Source: Sphingobacteriales bacterium (lineage in GTDB: Bacteria > Bacteroidota > Bacteroidia > Chitinophagales > CAIOSU01). From it: a DNA stretch of 64,000 nucleotides. This document shows, piece by piece, positions 52,933-58,648 of this stretch. The notes under the pieces are model-generated. The model was not told where the DNA came from. It made no database searches and saw only the letters and a list, made by a program, of their open reading frames with translations. The stretch is from positions 126,001 through 190,000 of the forward strand of contig JAIXUD010000010.1 in the NCBI GenBank assembly GCA_027483645.1, in the 5' to 3' direction. Made by a program: the position numbers and the translations under genes. Numbering within the stretch: position 1 is the stretch's first letter; the number at the start of each line of letters is the position of its first letter.

Positions 52933-53544
52933 TCAATATATTACCCTGTCTAGTATCTCTTGTCTGATAACTCCATAGCTATCTGTTACAAATGTTTCTC
53001 TATTAATGTCAACAAGTGCTAAAGCCAAATCTATATTACATAAGGTACCATTCCTCAATTCGGCATAATCTAAAAACGAGGAGTACTCCCAATCCTCCAT
53101 TCGGCTAACCAAATCTGCCTTGAGTATGTTTTGATGTATGTAGTGTAAACAAATTGCCAAGTGGTTAGGTCCTACTGTAGCTTTTAAATCCAATTGCTTA
53201 GCTTTCGATTTCTGTTGAAACAATGAACCTTTAAAGTTTTCTTGTTTTTGCAAAGCTTGGGTATAAGAACTTTGCATAGTGGCTATTTTTCGAGATAAAA
53301 CTTGCTGTGTCGTAGTACTTGTCTCCATACTCTCCTTTACCAACTTACATCCTTGCTCATTTGGTCTTAGTAAAAGATGGTAGTGATTTGGCATTAAACA
53401 ATAGGCTAGGATGTCACAATTTCCCGTTAAGGATTGACGGATTTTGCTGATAAAGTAAAGATAGTTGCTCCGAGTAAAGAAAATACGCTGCCTGTTATTG
53501 CCACGATTATAGACATGGTAAATTTCTCCTTGCATAAATTTCAT
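52933..53544 (-). CDS. REP-associated tyrosine transposase (RAYT, TnpA_REP / Y1 family)
   Basis: 203 residues. Y1-transposase core: GEIYHVYNRGNNRQRIF with the first conserved segment, YFISKIRQSL, CDILAYCLMPNHYHLLLRPNE with the HUH metal motif (HYH), and NLAICLHYIHQNILKADLV. A candidate nucleophile tyrosine lies in the CLHYIHQN segment. RAYTs are single-copy domesticated HUH nucleases that act on and may spread REP/REPIN palindromes. The gene is bracketed by two copies of a REP-like element in inverted orientation. Confidence 0.92.
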   Translation of the reverse strand: MKFMQGEIYHVYNRGNNRQRIFFTRSNYLYFISKIRQSLTGNCDILAYCLMPNHYHLLLRPNEQGCKLVKESMETSTTTQQVLSRKIATMQSSYTQALQKQENFKGSLFQQKSKAKQLDLKATVGPNHLAICLHYIHQNILKADLVSRMEDWEYSSFLDYAELRNGTLCNIDLALALVDINRETFVTDSYGVIRQEILDRVIY

Positions 53545-53649: not shown

Positions 53650-53731
53650 GTAGCGGTCGGACGCCCTTTCCGAACATAAGCCGTCGGATACGTCAACGCC
53701 ATCACTCGCACTACCGTAGTCGTCTGACCGC
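53650..53731 (-). repeat. REP-like element, right of the RAYT gene, inverted relative to the left copy
   Basis: Its reverse complement starts GCGGTCAGACGACTACGGT and ends CGGAAAGGGCGTCCGACCGC-TAC. These ends match those of 52805-52887, and only the centres differ. Confidence 0.75.
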
Positions 53732-53746
53732 AGGGAGACACAACAA

Positions 53747-53785
53747 AAAAGAGAACGAAACAGTATACCTGCTTCGTTCTCTTTT
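53747..53785 (-). terminator. Bidirectional hairpin terminator after hsp20
   Basis: AAAAGAGAACGAA and TTCGTTCTCTTTT are 13-base perfect inverted arms around a 13-base loop, 31 bases after the hsp20 stop. The minus strand continues in TTGTTGTG. Confidence 0.8.
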
Positions 53786-55758: not shown

Positions 55759-57126
55759 TTACTTCATTTGTATCGATTTCTCTAGTGACTCCAGCGCGTA
55801 TTCGATTTCGGCATCGGTGAGCTCATGGTCAACCAAATTTCCACCTAGGTATTGCTCGTACGCATGTAGGTCAAAGTGCCCATGCCCGCAGAGGTTGAAT
55901 AGGATGGTTTTGGCCTCCCCGGTTTCTTTCGCTTTTTTGGCTTCTGCTATTACTGTAGCTATGGCGTGGTTGGCCTCAGGTGCCGGTAATATGCCTTCAG
56001 TTTGGGCAAACAACATACCCGCAGCAAAGCACTCGCTCTGCTTTACCGAGCGTGCGGATATCAGCCCATCCTTCAACAACTGGCTTACAATTACGCCTGC
56101 GCCATGGTAGCGCAGTCCACCGGCATGTATGCTTGGCGGTACAAAATCGTGCCCGAGGGTGTACATAGGCAGCAAAGGCACCATACCTACTGTATCGCCA
56201 TAGTCATATCTGAACTTGCCTTTGGTAAGCTTAGGGCAAGATGTTGGCTCCACCGCTATACACTCCACCTTTTTGCCTTGGGTGAGATTGAGGTGTAGGA
56301 AAGGGAACGCAATACCTGCAAAGTTGGAGCCGCCGCCAAACGGGGCTATTACCATATCGGGGAAATCACCGGTCATTTCTAGTTGTTTCAAAGCCTCCTG
56401 CCCGATGATGGTTTGGTGCATCAGTACATGGTTGAGAACGCTGCCGAGTGAATACTTAATATTCTCGTTTTTCATAGCTACTTCCACGGCCTCGCTGATG
56501 GCGATGCCCAAGCTACCCGGCGAATCGGGCGTTTGCCCCAGTATCTGCCTGCCGCTATCGGTAAGGTTGCTGGGCGAGGCGATTACTTCCGCGCCAAACG
56601 TATTCATCAGCACCTTGCGGTAGGGCTTTTGTTGATAGCTCAGCTTCACCATATACACCTGCAAATCGATACCGAAGTGCTGGCAGGCAAAGCTCAGCGC
56701 ACAGCCCCATTGGCCGGCGCCGGTTTCGGTAGTCAGCTTGGTTACGCCTTCCATTTTGTTGTAGTAGGCTTGCGGTATGGCTGTGTTGGGCTTATGTGAG
56801 CCCGTTGGGCTCACGCCCTCATATTTGTAATAGATTTTGGCAGGGGTACCCAAAGCCTTCTCCAGTGCCGTAGCGCGGATGAGTGGGGTAGGGCGGTAGA
56901 TGCGGTAAAGCTCCTGCACGGCCTCTGGTATCTCGATATATCGTTCGGTGCTTACCTCTTGCTTGATGAGTTCCATAGGGAACAGCGGTGCCAAATCCTC
57001 TGGCCCCAGTGGTTGCTGCGTAACTGGGTGCAATGGCGGCAGCGGCTTGTTGGGCATATCGGCCATGATGTTGTAGTAGTGGGTGGGCATCTCGCCTTCG
57101 TTCAGGTATATTTTCTTGGTTTTCAT
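55759..57126 (-). CDS. trpB2: Tryptophan synthase beta-like protein, TrpB2 type
   Basis: 455 residues, clearly the longer TrpB2 class rather than the 400-residue TrpB1. It has the N-terminal [14 protein letters not shown]-like segment ([20 protein letters not shown]). PLP-enzyme motifs: [10 protein letters not shown] with Schiff-base Lys 112, TETGAGQWG (catalytic Glu 134), GGGSNFAG phosphate loop, and [14 protein letters not shown]. The expected reaction is beta-replacement of serine with indole to give Trp, but TrpB2 partners and in vivo role are less certain; some act as Trp salvage or Ser deaminase. It is monocistronic, with a Trp-codon leader and terminator 184-340 bases upstream. Confidence 0.93.
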
Positions 57127-57310
57127 GTTTATCTAAGGGTTGTACGGTTGATGGATATTTGAAAAGATGGGTATGCTAATGCCAGGGTGAAAGTATGTAC
57201 ATGGCATCGCCAGACTAGTCTTTCCGTTTCAAAAACGCACATCAAAACACAAACGATAGTTGTCGCTACAAGAAATGGGAACATGGTAATTATGGTTTTT
57301 TAAAAGTCCG

Positions 57311-57376
57311 AAGCTGAAAGGGAGGGAAAAGAAAAAGGGATACACGGTTTGTCGACCTGCGTATCCCTTTCAGCTT
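57311..57376 (-). promoter_or_regulatory. Putative attenuator (terminator and competing inverted repeat) before trpB2
   Basis: On the minus strand segment A (57376-57361, AAGCTGAAAGGGATAC) can pair its AAAGGGATAC with B (57343-57334, GTATCCCTTT), followed by TTTCTTTT. That is a 10-bp rho-independent terminator. The AAGCTGAAAGGGA part of A is also a perfect 13-base complement of C (57323-57311, TCCCTTTCAGCTT). A:B and A:C are mutually exclusive. It lies 25 bases after the stop codon of the Trp-rich leader ORF. Confidence 0.75.
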
Positions 57377-57401
57377 ATGGGATTAGAAAGAGGAAAAACT
57401 C

Positions 57402-57467
57402 CTACGCGGCCACCTGGGTTTGCCAAGTGCGCCACCAATTGTTGAGTTGTACCTTTTGAAAATTCAT
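57402..57467 (-). CDS. Tryptophan leader peptide (21 codons, three Trp) of trpB2
   Basis: An ATG at 57467 opens a 21-codon frame ending in TAG at 57402. It includes NNWWRTWQ: adjacent Trp codons 11 and 12 and a third at 15. Trp is rare, so three in 21 codons directly upstream of a terminator and a tryptophan synthase gene strongly suggests a ribosome-mediated attenuation leader. Residues outside the Trp cluster are unremarkable (MNFQKVQL start, QVAA end). It begins 84 bases after the recF stop codon on the same strand. The upstream TATAATTGC just before the ATG resembles a -7 box. Confidence 0.8.
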   Translation of the reverse strand: MNFQKVQLNNWWRTWQTQVAA

Positions 57468-57550
57468 GATGCAATTATAACGCGGAATTTTAAATTTGCA
57501 AATAGGGAGAGCAGATATTTGTTTTGATAAATCATCTGGAAGGGTCATAA

Positions 57551-58648
57551 TTAAACCAATTCCCCACCCTCTACCTCAAATATCTCTGGCGGGCTGGGAT
57601 GCCCGGTGAATACCGCCTCGATTCGGGCACGCTGGGTGTCGGTAATAAATATCTGCCCGAAAGAGGCATCGCTAATGTGGTGTAGCAATCGCGCGCTGCG
57701 CCCCGCATCCAGCTTATCGAAAATATCATCCAACAGCAAAAATGGCTTAACCCCTTTCTGGCGGTAAAGCAATTGATACTGGGCCAGTTTCAAGGCTATT
57801 AAATACGATTTTTGTTGCCCTTGGCTACCGAAACGGCGTACGGTGTGGCCGTCCATCATTAGTTCCAAGTCATCGCGGTGGGTGCCGTCGCTGGTGCGGC
57901 CCATGGCGCGGTCGCGCTCGAAGTTTTGCTGTAGTATTTGGGCTAGTGGCCTTTCGTTCAGCGGGCTGGTATAGTGCAGCCCCACCTGCTCGCGCTCGCC
58001 ACTAATAGCGGCATACACGGCATTAAAGTCGGGCACCAACTCTGCCACGTAACTGTGCCGCTTTTCGTGTATCAGCGTAGCATGGGCGCTCAATTCCTCA
58101 TCGTACACATTTATCATCGCCTTATCAAGCCTGCCAGTTTCCAAGCCCCGCTTTAACAAAGCATTACGCTGGGTAAGTATGCGGGTATAGGCTTGCAATG
58201 CATCCAAATACGGCCTATCAATCTGCGAAGCCGTCATATCCAAAAACCTACGCCTTTCCTCACTTGGGCCATTAATAAGTATGTTATCATCGGGAGTAAC
58301 AATAACCACAGGGAAACGCCCCACATGGTCGGCCAAGCGCTCGTAGGCCAGTTCGTTCAGTTCCAGTTCCTTCCTTTTCCCAAGTTTGTATACGCACTTC
58401 AGGTCTTGCTGCTCGCCATCCAGTTTTATACAAGCATCCAACCTAAAGAAATCGTGCTCGTGCTGTATGTTGTGCTGGTCGGTACTATGGAAGTAGCTTT
58501 TGCCCAAGCAGCAGTAATATATCGCATCCAGCAAGTTGGTTTTGCCCGCCCCGTTGTGCCCCGTAAAGCACACCATTTGCTTACTGAAGCTTATTTTAAG
58601 CTTCGGGTAGTTTTTGAAATGGAGGAGGGATAACGAACTAAGATGCAT
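57551..58648 (-). CDS. recF: DNA replication and repair protein RecF
   Basis: 365 residues, SMC-like ABC ATPase that loads RecA at gapped DNA with RecO/RecR. Walker A GHNGAGKTNLLDAIYY (about 30-45) follows the N-terminal LSLLHFKNYPKLKISFS. The Q-loop region is QHNIQHEHDFFRL. The RecF signature SEERRRFLDMTASQIDRPYLDALQAY and the ABC signature FGSQGQQKSYLIALKLAQ come next. Walker B KPFLLLDDIFDKLD and the D-loop follow, then FITDTQR. Length is typical. It is on the same strand as trpB2, with the leader/attenuator between. Confidence 0.96.
   Translation of the reverse strand: MHLSSLSLLHFKNYPKLKISFSKQMVCFTGHNGAGKTNLLDAIYYCCLGKSYFHSTDQHNIQHEHDFFRLDACIKLDGEQQDLKCVYKLGKRKELELNELAYERLADHVGRFPVVIVTPDDNILINGPSEERRRFLDMTASQIDRPYLDALQAYTRILTQRNALLKRGLETGRLDKAMINVYDEELSAHATLIHEKRHSYVAELVPDFNAVYAAISGEREQVGLHYTSPLNERPLAQILQQNFERDRAMGRTSDGTHRDDLELMMDGHTVRRFGSQGQQKSYLIALKLAQYQLLYRQKGVKPFLLLDDIFDKLDAGRSARLLHHISDASFGQIFITDTQRARIEAVFTGHPSPPEIFEVEGGELV

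Follow-up and report, generated by a model that had tools for sequence, protein, structure and literature searches.

Control of tryptophan genes by a leader peptide carrying Trp codons is a textbook mechanism. In Escherichia coli trpL (RF00513, Trp_leader), a short leader with Trp codons is combined with alternative 1:2, 2:3, and 3:4 pairings and an intrinsic terminator. Another E. coli peptide, TnaC, likewise depends on a Trp residue, in the control of an indole/Trp gene. Attenuators have reportedly been predicted in Bacteroidetes/Chlorobi by Vitreschak et al. in 2004.

Within the Bacteroidota, Rfam holds RF01692, the "Bacteroidete tryptophan peptide leader RNA" or Bacteroid-trp (PMC2864571, PMC6414381). 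An occurrence ahead of the trp operon of F. psychrophilum is on record (PMC6414381), and signs of leader-peptide attenuation are described in that species (PMC9723704). RF01692 leaders are Trp-rich (for example, MKITMNNTWWWKNLRQTS and MFNNKNNSWWWSLLRQTS) and are followed by a terminator-like hairpin; where the gene is readable, the loci precede trpE or the trpB of trp operons. An attenuator is also predicted for Corynebacterium diphtheriae (PMC1262725), before the actinobacterial operon trpB2A, where trpB2 is paired with a trpA; a separate trpB1EDGC operon exists in the same genome. For TrpB2-class enzymes, a high affinity for indole and the use of phosphoserine are reported (PMC11917138). The open-access literature searched yielded no account of trpB2 attenuation in the Bacteroidota.

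We analyze a leader region upstream of trpB2 in a window of 64,000 nucleotides, that is, the whole stretch of DNA under study. The region is very probably a classical ribosome-mediated transcription attenuator, such that trpB2 would be read only on Trp shortage. The case rests on the sequence parts, their conservation, the folding behavior of the RNA, the distribution of Trp leaders among trpB2 genes, and the absence of TrpA and TrpC. The mechanism is known; the target gene and the form of the RNA are new.

The window resembles E. coli trpL in its parts, in the UUGGUGGCGCACUU at its Trp codons (WWRT), and in the same three-state behavior under a comparable folding test. Unlike trpL, it would control a single trpB2 rather than a biosynthetic operon, its leader start adjoins the promoter, and its predicted antiterminator is two-armed, built from the 3' end of the ORF and the stop codon. 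It shares with C. diphtheriae trpB2A a Trp leader with an attenuator before a gene named trpB2; the window trpB2, however, is a stand-alone gene with a probable role in salvage. The first-pass annotation knew of no described example in the Bacteroidota, a statement that is incorrect for the phylum, as the Trp leaders of RF01692 are already known there, on trpE/trpB operons rather than on trpB2.

Existing RNA models do not recover the region. RF00513, with a cut-off of 41 bits, scores 17.2 bits (E 0.55) at 57443-57391; RF01692 (cut-off 49 bits) has no match in 57220-57560 at E up to 10, and the Rfam search of the region returned chance-level matches only. The best RF01692 match in the window's genome (L115; 24.3 bits, E 4.6) lacks a Trp leader and was rejected as chance.

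Leader, promoter, and terminator

The first-pass annotation described a 21-codon minus-strand ORF with three Trp codons, two of them adjacent. This ORF is present and is kept in relatives together with the terminator (Table 1). It starts 341 nt upstream of trpB2, and its Trp residues fall at codons 11, 12, and 15 of 21, a cluster of end-product codons in a short leader ORF of the kind seen in trpL-type attenuators. Within the whole window, three Trp in six codons are found in three ATG ORFs of 8-35 codons, the leader included, and a three-Trp ORF arose in 0 of 1,000 dinucleotide shuffles of the 300 nt adjoining trpB2, a stretch that stops short of the leader.

Table 1. Positions of the features of the trpB2 leader region in the window
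Feature	Position	Strand	Sequence or remark
trpB2, TrpB-like PLP enzyme, controlled gene	55759..57126	minus	NF009057, TIGR01415
Distal 13-mer	57311..57323	minus	UCCCUUUCAGCUU; exact complement of 57376-57364; downstream of U-tract; genus-conserved
U-tract	57327..57336	minus	UUUUUCUUUU
Segments 3 and 4, intrinsic terminator hairpin	57333..57371	minus	GAAAGGGAUACGCAGGUCGACAAACCGUGUAUCCCUUUU; core stem identical in 4 genomes
Segment 2b	57386..57394	minus	UCCUCUUUC; predicted second antiterminator arm, pairs with 57371-57364
Leader peptide ORF	57402..57467	minus	MNFQKVQLNNWWRTWQTQVAA, 21 codons, stop UAG
Segment 2a	57403..57412	minus	UGGCCGCGUA; leader ORF 3' end including UA of stop; predicted antiterminator 5' strand, pairs with 57363-57353
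Trp codon 15	57423..57425	minus	
Segment 1, inner	57423..57435	minus	GUGGCGCACUUGG; pairs with segment 2 (57417-57406)
Trp codons 11 and 12	57432..57437	minus	UGGUGG
Segment 1, outer	57444..57454	minus	AGGUACAACUC; pairs with GAGUUUUUCCU (57401-57391)
-7 element	57472..57479	minus	TATAATTG; consensus TAnnTTTG, 1 mismatch
-33 element of sigma-ABfr promoter of Bacteroidota	57499..57502	minus	TTTG; 19 nt from -7 box

The promoter elements follow the Bacteroidota consensus TTTG/TAnnTTTG (PMC7366714). The gap from the end of the -7 box to the leader ATG is 4 nt, so the mRNA, as we infer from this spacing, probably starts at or beside the AUG. A -7 box lies at most 15 nt from the leader start at 22 of 29 trpB2 leaders, compared with 24 of 116 control positions. 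The -33 TTTG is absent from the same-genus relatives.

As in trpL-type attenuators, an intrinsic terminator stands between the leader and the first gene. The hairpin with a T-rich tail noted earlier is there, at 57371-57327 of the minus strand, composed of AAAGGGATAC..GTATCCCTTT and then TTTTTCTTTT. Its distance of 25 nt from the leader stop is correct for the AAGCTG flank, whereas the 10-bp stem itself (AAAGGGATAC) begins 31 nt past the stop.

trpB2 was also found in three further genomes of the genus, at 88% identity, and in each of them the conserved -7 box, leader, and terminator follow a gene other than recF. Absence from close relatives had been proposed as the test of the attenuator reading; on running it, we found the whole element in every one of these genomes. 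The leader peptides of the genus read MN[N/I]QKVQRNN[W/R]WRVWQV[P/Q]AAS*; Trp codon 11 is lost in L036 (W11R), and the Trp codons are otherwise kept. Between window and relatives, the terminator is 87% identical, the distal 13-mer 79-86%, the leader ORF 77-82%, the promoter 71%, and the linker from stop to terminator 65%; identity is 52-55% upstream of the element and 24% over the 186 nt after the 13-mer. Conservation behind another gene, together with the drop in identity downstream, argues that the element is a unit of its own, tied to trpB2 and not to recF. The recF neighborhood, part of the original description, is incidental. The stretch from the attenuator to trpB2 (window 57312-57127, minus strand) is about 72 nt longer than in the relatives and is not conserved.

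The same comparison bears on a simpler account: a plain intrinsic terminator behind recF, a Trp-rich ORF that arose by chance, and a trpB2 promoter further downstream, with no Trp control. The hairpin need be no more than a strong terminator, its core is invariant and offers no covariation, and the 186 nt from the distal complement to trpB2 could house a promoter. Yet those 186 nt are the unconserved part, and in the relatives the element follows a different gene and comes with its own -7 box and leader. Trp leaders also stand, together with terminators, at about a third of the trpB2 genes sampled (see below). We consider the plain terminator improbable.

Alternative pairings in the leader RNA

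The free leader RNA is predicted to fold into the terminator and an extended stem 1:2 containing the Trp codons. This folding beats 200 of 200 shuffles (z -4.5), and the relatives give z -3.8 and -5.1. Two pairs of stem 1:2 show compensatory changes, one outer (columns 23/68, U-A in the window and G-C in the relatives) and one inner (columns 40/56, A-U and G-C, respectively), and several one-sided changes also keep pairing. On the conserved Trp codons and covariation that the first-pass annotation asked to have checked, stem 1:2 shows these compensatory changes, L036 carries W11R, and the core terminator, invariant in the 4 genomes, yields no covariation. The four window-type sequences come from one genus and are not independent.

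For every nascent length, a ribosome was set on one of the Trp codons or on the stop codon, and the RNA beyond it was folded. A ribosome at codon 11, 12, or 15, combined with a transcript that stops in the terminator loop, allows 8-10 segment 2:3 pairs in 4 of 4 genomes, and the minimum free energy of this stalled state is -17 to -18.8 kcal/mol in all four. No segment 2:3 pairs form with the ribosome at the stop codon, and 0-1.4 form without a ribosome; in both states, the terminator folds. The predicted antiterminator sets the leader 3' end (57412-57403) and 57394-57386 against the 5' arm and loop of the terminator, where the partner of segment 2a is UACGC-A-GGUCG. By folding in the four genomes, and with moderate support from shuffles, this strand is free on a stall at the Trp codons, masked at the stop codon, and exclusive of the terminator. 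The comparison with shuffled linkers is the softest part of the attenuator case: an equally good antiterminator folding gain occurs in 13-16 of 1,000 shuffles for the relatives and in 73 of 1,000 for the window, where the result is weak. At equilibrium, the terminator always wins in the full-length RNA, as it does in the E. coli trpL control; therefore, the switch must be kinetic and decided during transcription, in E. coli too.

We infer the following course of events in the cell. Transcription would begin at or just before the leader AUG, with a ribosome trailing RNA polymerase along the 21 codons. When charged tRNA-Trp is ample, the ribosome would reach the UAG and cover segment 2a, the terminator hairpin would form, and transcription would end at the U-tract. 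When charged tRNA-Trp is scarce, the ribosome would stall at codons 11/12 (or 15), breaking stem 1:2 and leaving 2a and 2b free; the emerging 5' arm and loop of the terminator would pair with them, the terminator would be pre-empted, and trpB2 would be transcribed. Without a ribosome, stem 1:2 would form and termination would follow. How a stalled ribosome chooses the fold had not seemed obvious from the spacing; an antiterminator located at the leader 3' end has a spacing that accounts for the choice.

The first-pass annotation placed the decision elsewhere, in a distal 13-mer or in an ATCCC at 57383-57379 competing for the 5' side of the terminator stem. Both complementarities are present. 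The 13-mer is an exact match to 57376-57364, although this target covers the AAGCTG flank and only the lower part of the stem, not the whole 5' side; it is also conserved, with a complement of 11-13 nt at about 2880-2893 in the same-genus loci L035-L037 and a single change, in L037, that leaves a G-U pair. However, RNA polymerase reaches the 13-mer only past the U-tract, so that this segment is confined to read-through RNA and has no say in whether the terminator forms. The ATCCC can pair with GGGAT in the window, but this pairing is one pair short in all three relatives, where T-A has become A-A. A deciding role for either strand is thus very unlikely, and both were rejected as switch elements. 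The 13-mer plays no part in the attenuation model and may fold the 5' end of the read-through mRNA into a hairpin of -25.4 kcal/mol; could the distal complement serve RNA stability or as a processing site? Pairing of CCUCUUUC with GAAAGGG was also considered as the sole antiterminator and set aside, as a ribosome at the stop codon permits it just as well and it does not discriminate by itself; its place is in the second arm.

Trp leaders at other trpB2 genes

We surveyed 300 nt upstream of each of 79 other trpB2 loci, mostly from Bacteroidota. ATG-started leaders in which a six-codon stretch has at least two Trp precede 26 of the 79; the reverse strand gave none, and shuffles predict 1.4. Two leaders with GTG starts bring the loci with a leader to about 28 of 79. 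Leader and terminator go together: a terminator accompanies 24 of 26 loci with a leader and 10 of 53 without (Fisher p 2.5e-10). Of the 23 non-window leaders with a recognized terminator, 19 switch clearly in the ribosome-position test. The automated test showed no clear switching for L109, L112, L113, and L114; L113 switched at another endpoint. With the whole element in three relatives and comparable leaders at many trpB2 genes, the initial proposal of a Trp-codon-sensing transcription attenuator before trpB2 is supported.

The TrpB2 tree unites the window genus and Bacteroidales in one supported clade (96/95), in which 24 of 27 members, the window included, have leaders. Leaders outside it occur in the Flavobacteriaceae (L055, L060, and L061) and at L080 and L083. 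The Bacteroidales and Flavobacteriaceae leaders share the target gene and switch logic of the window, but their RNA sequence differs. In the Bacteroidales, unlike in the window, the freed leader segment (for example, GCUGUGAA) pairs with the loop and 3' arm of the terminator (UUCACAGC). The Flavobacteriaceae leader L055 scores 34.3 bits against RF01692, under the cut-off of 49. Outside the genus, an RNA model of the window type had no credible match in 295 genomes of the class. Matches of RNA model R1 at L127 and L128 lack a Trp leader and were discarded as chance.

The breadth of the survey also bears on stalling of the TnaC kind, in which the nascent peptide and free tryptophan, rather than uncharged tRNA-Trp, would hold the ribosome. 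TnaC likewise relies on a Trp residue and targets an indole/Trp gene, and the window leader is fairly conserved within its genus (77-82% nucleotide identity). Across the clade, however, the peptides share little except two or three clustered Trp codons, and the stall positions required by the RNA folds are the Trp codons themselves. Moreover, with stalling on free tryptophan, trpB2 would be expressed under Trp excess, the opposite of what a synthetic enzyme calls for. We regard this account as very unlikely and retain attenuation through tRNA-Trp charging.

Some loci depart from the common arrangement. The Trp leaders outside the main clade at L080:2812-2866 and L083:2814-2895 (MHNLSIWAWWPASQAAI, MTPVQCWWWRMSMITSDMW..) differ in outcome: L083 switches in the folding test, and L080 shows no terminator. 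In L088 and L089 (Bacteroidales, leader clade), the region 80-30 nt upstream of trpB2 keeps the terminator without the Trp leader, and another gene ends directly upstream, an apparent loss of trpB2 regulation.

TrpB2 and tryptophan supply

The controlled gene encodes a TrpB2 by both family models, at 727.9 for NF009057 (cut-off 366) and 633.7 for TIGR01415 (cut-off 518.85); its score against TIGR00263 (trpB) is 145.4, under the cut-off of 392.45. By this family assignment, the gene downstream of the leader supplies the amino acid that the leader would sense. TrpA and TrpC/IGPS are absent from the genome, which is 97.9% complete, and both families were found in 14 of 14 control genomes. The host bacterium thus appears unable to make tryptophan from scratch. 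The TrpB2 step would join indole with serine or phosphoserine to give tryptophan; with neither TrpA nor TrpC in the genome, the enzyme probably salvages outside indole.

TrpA was not found in genomes G001-G003. Across the survey, TrpA is missing above cut-off from 21 of 29 genomes with a leader, this one included, and from 4 of 22 without (Fisher p 0.0002), an association that is a lead only, as incomplete MAGs are common in the set and the genomes with a leader are relatives.

A Trp-codon attenuator before TrpB2 would mean that cells treat the enzyme as a source of tryptophan when charged tRNA-Trp is low. Such control fits indole salvage and bears on the role of TrpB2 in organisms without TrpA. 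Trp attenuation in the Bacteroidota would extend to a further gene and to RNA forms not captured by current Rfam models. A broader proposal stands evenly balanced in our judgment: that trpB2 Trp attenuators are ancestral in one Bacteroidota TrpB2 lineage, that they mark TrpB2 as an indole-salvage enzyme of Trp starvation, mainly in TrpA-less genomes, and that leader initiation at or near the RNA 5' end is part of the design.

Two further features of the window are recorded here. On the plus strand, the DnaX frameshift element of Rfam matches 53729-53782 weakly, at 22.2 bits (cut-off 35), probably by chance. On the minus strand, 52933-53544 is an ORF whose N-terminus, judged by eye, resembles a REP-associated (Y1) transposase.
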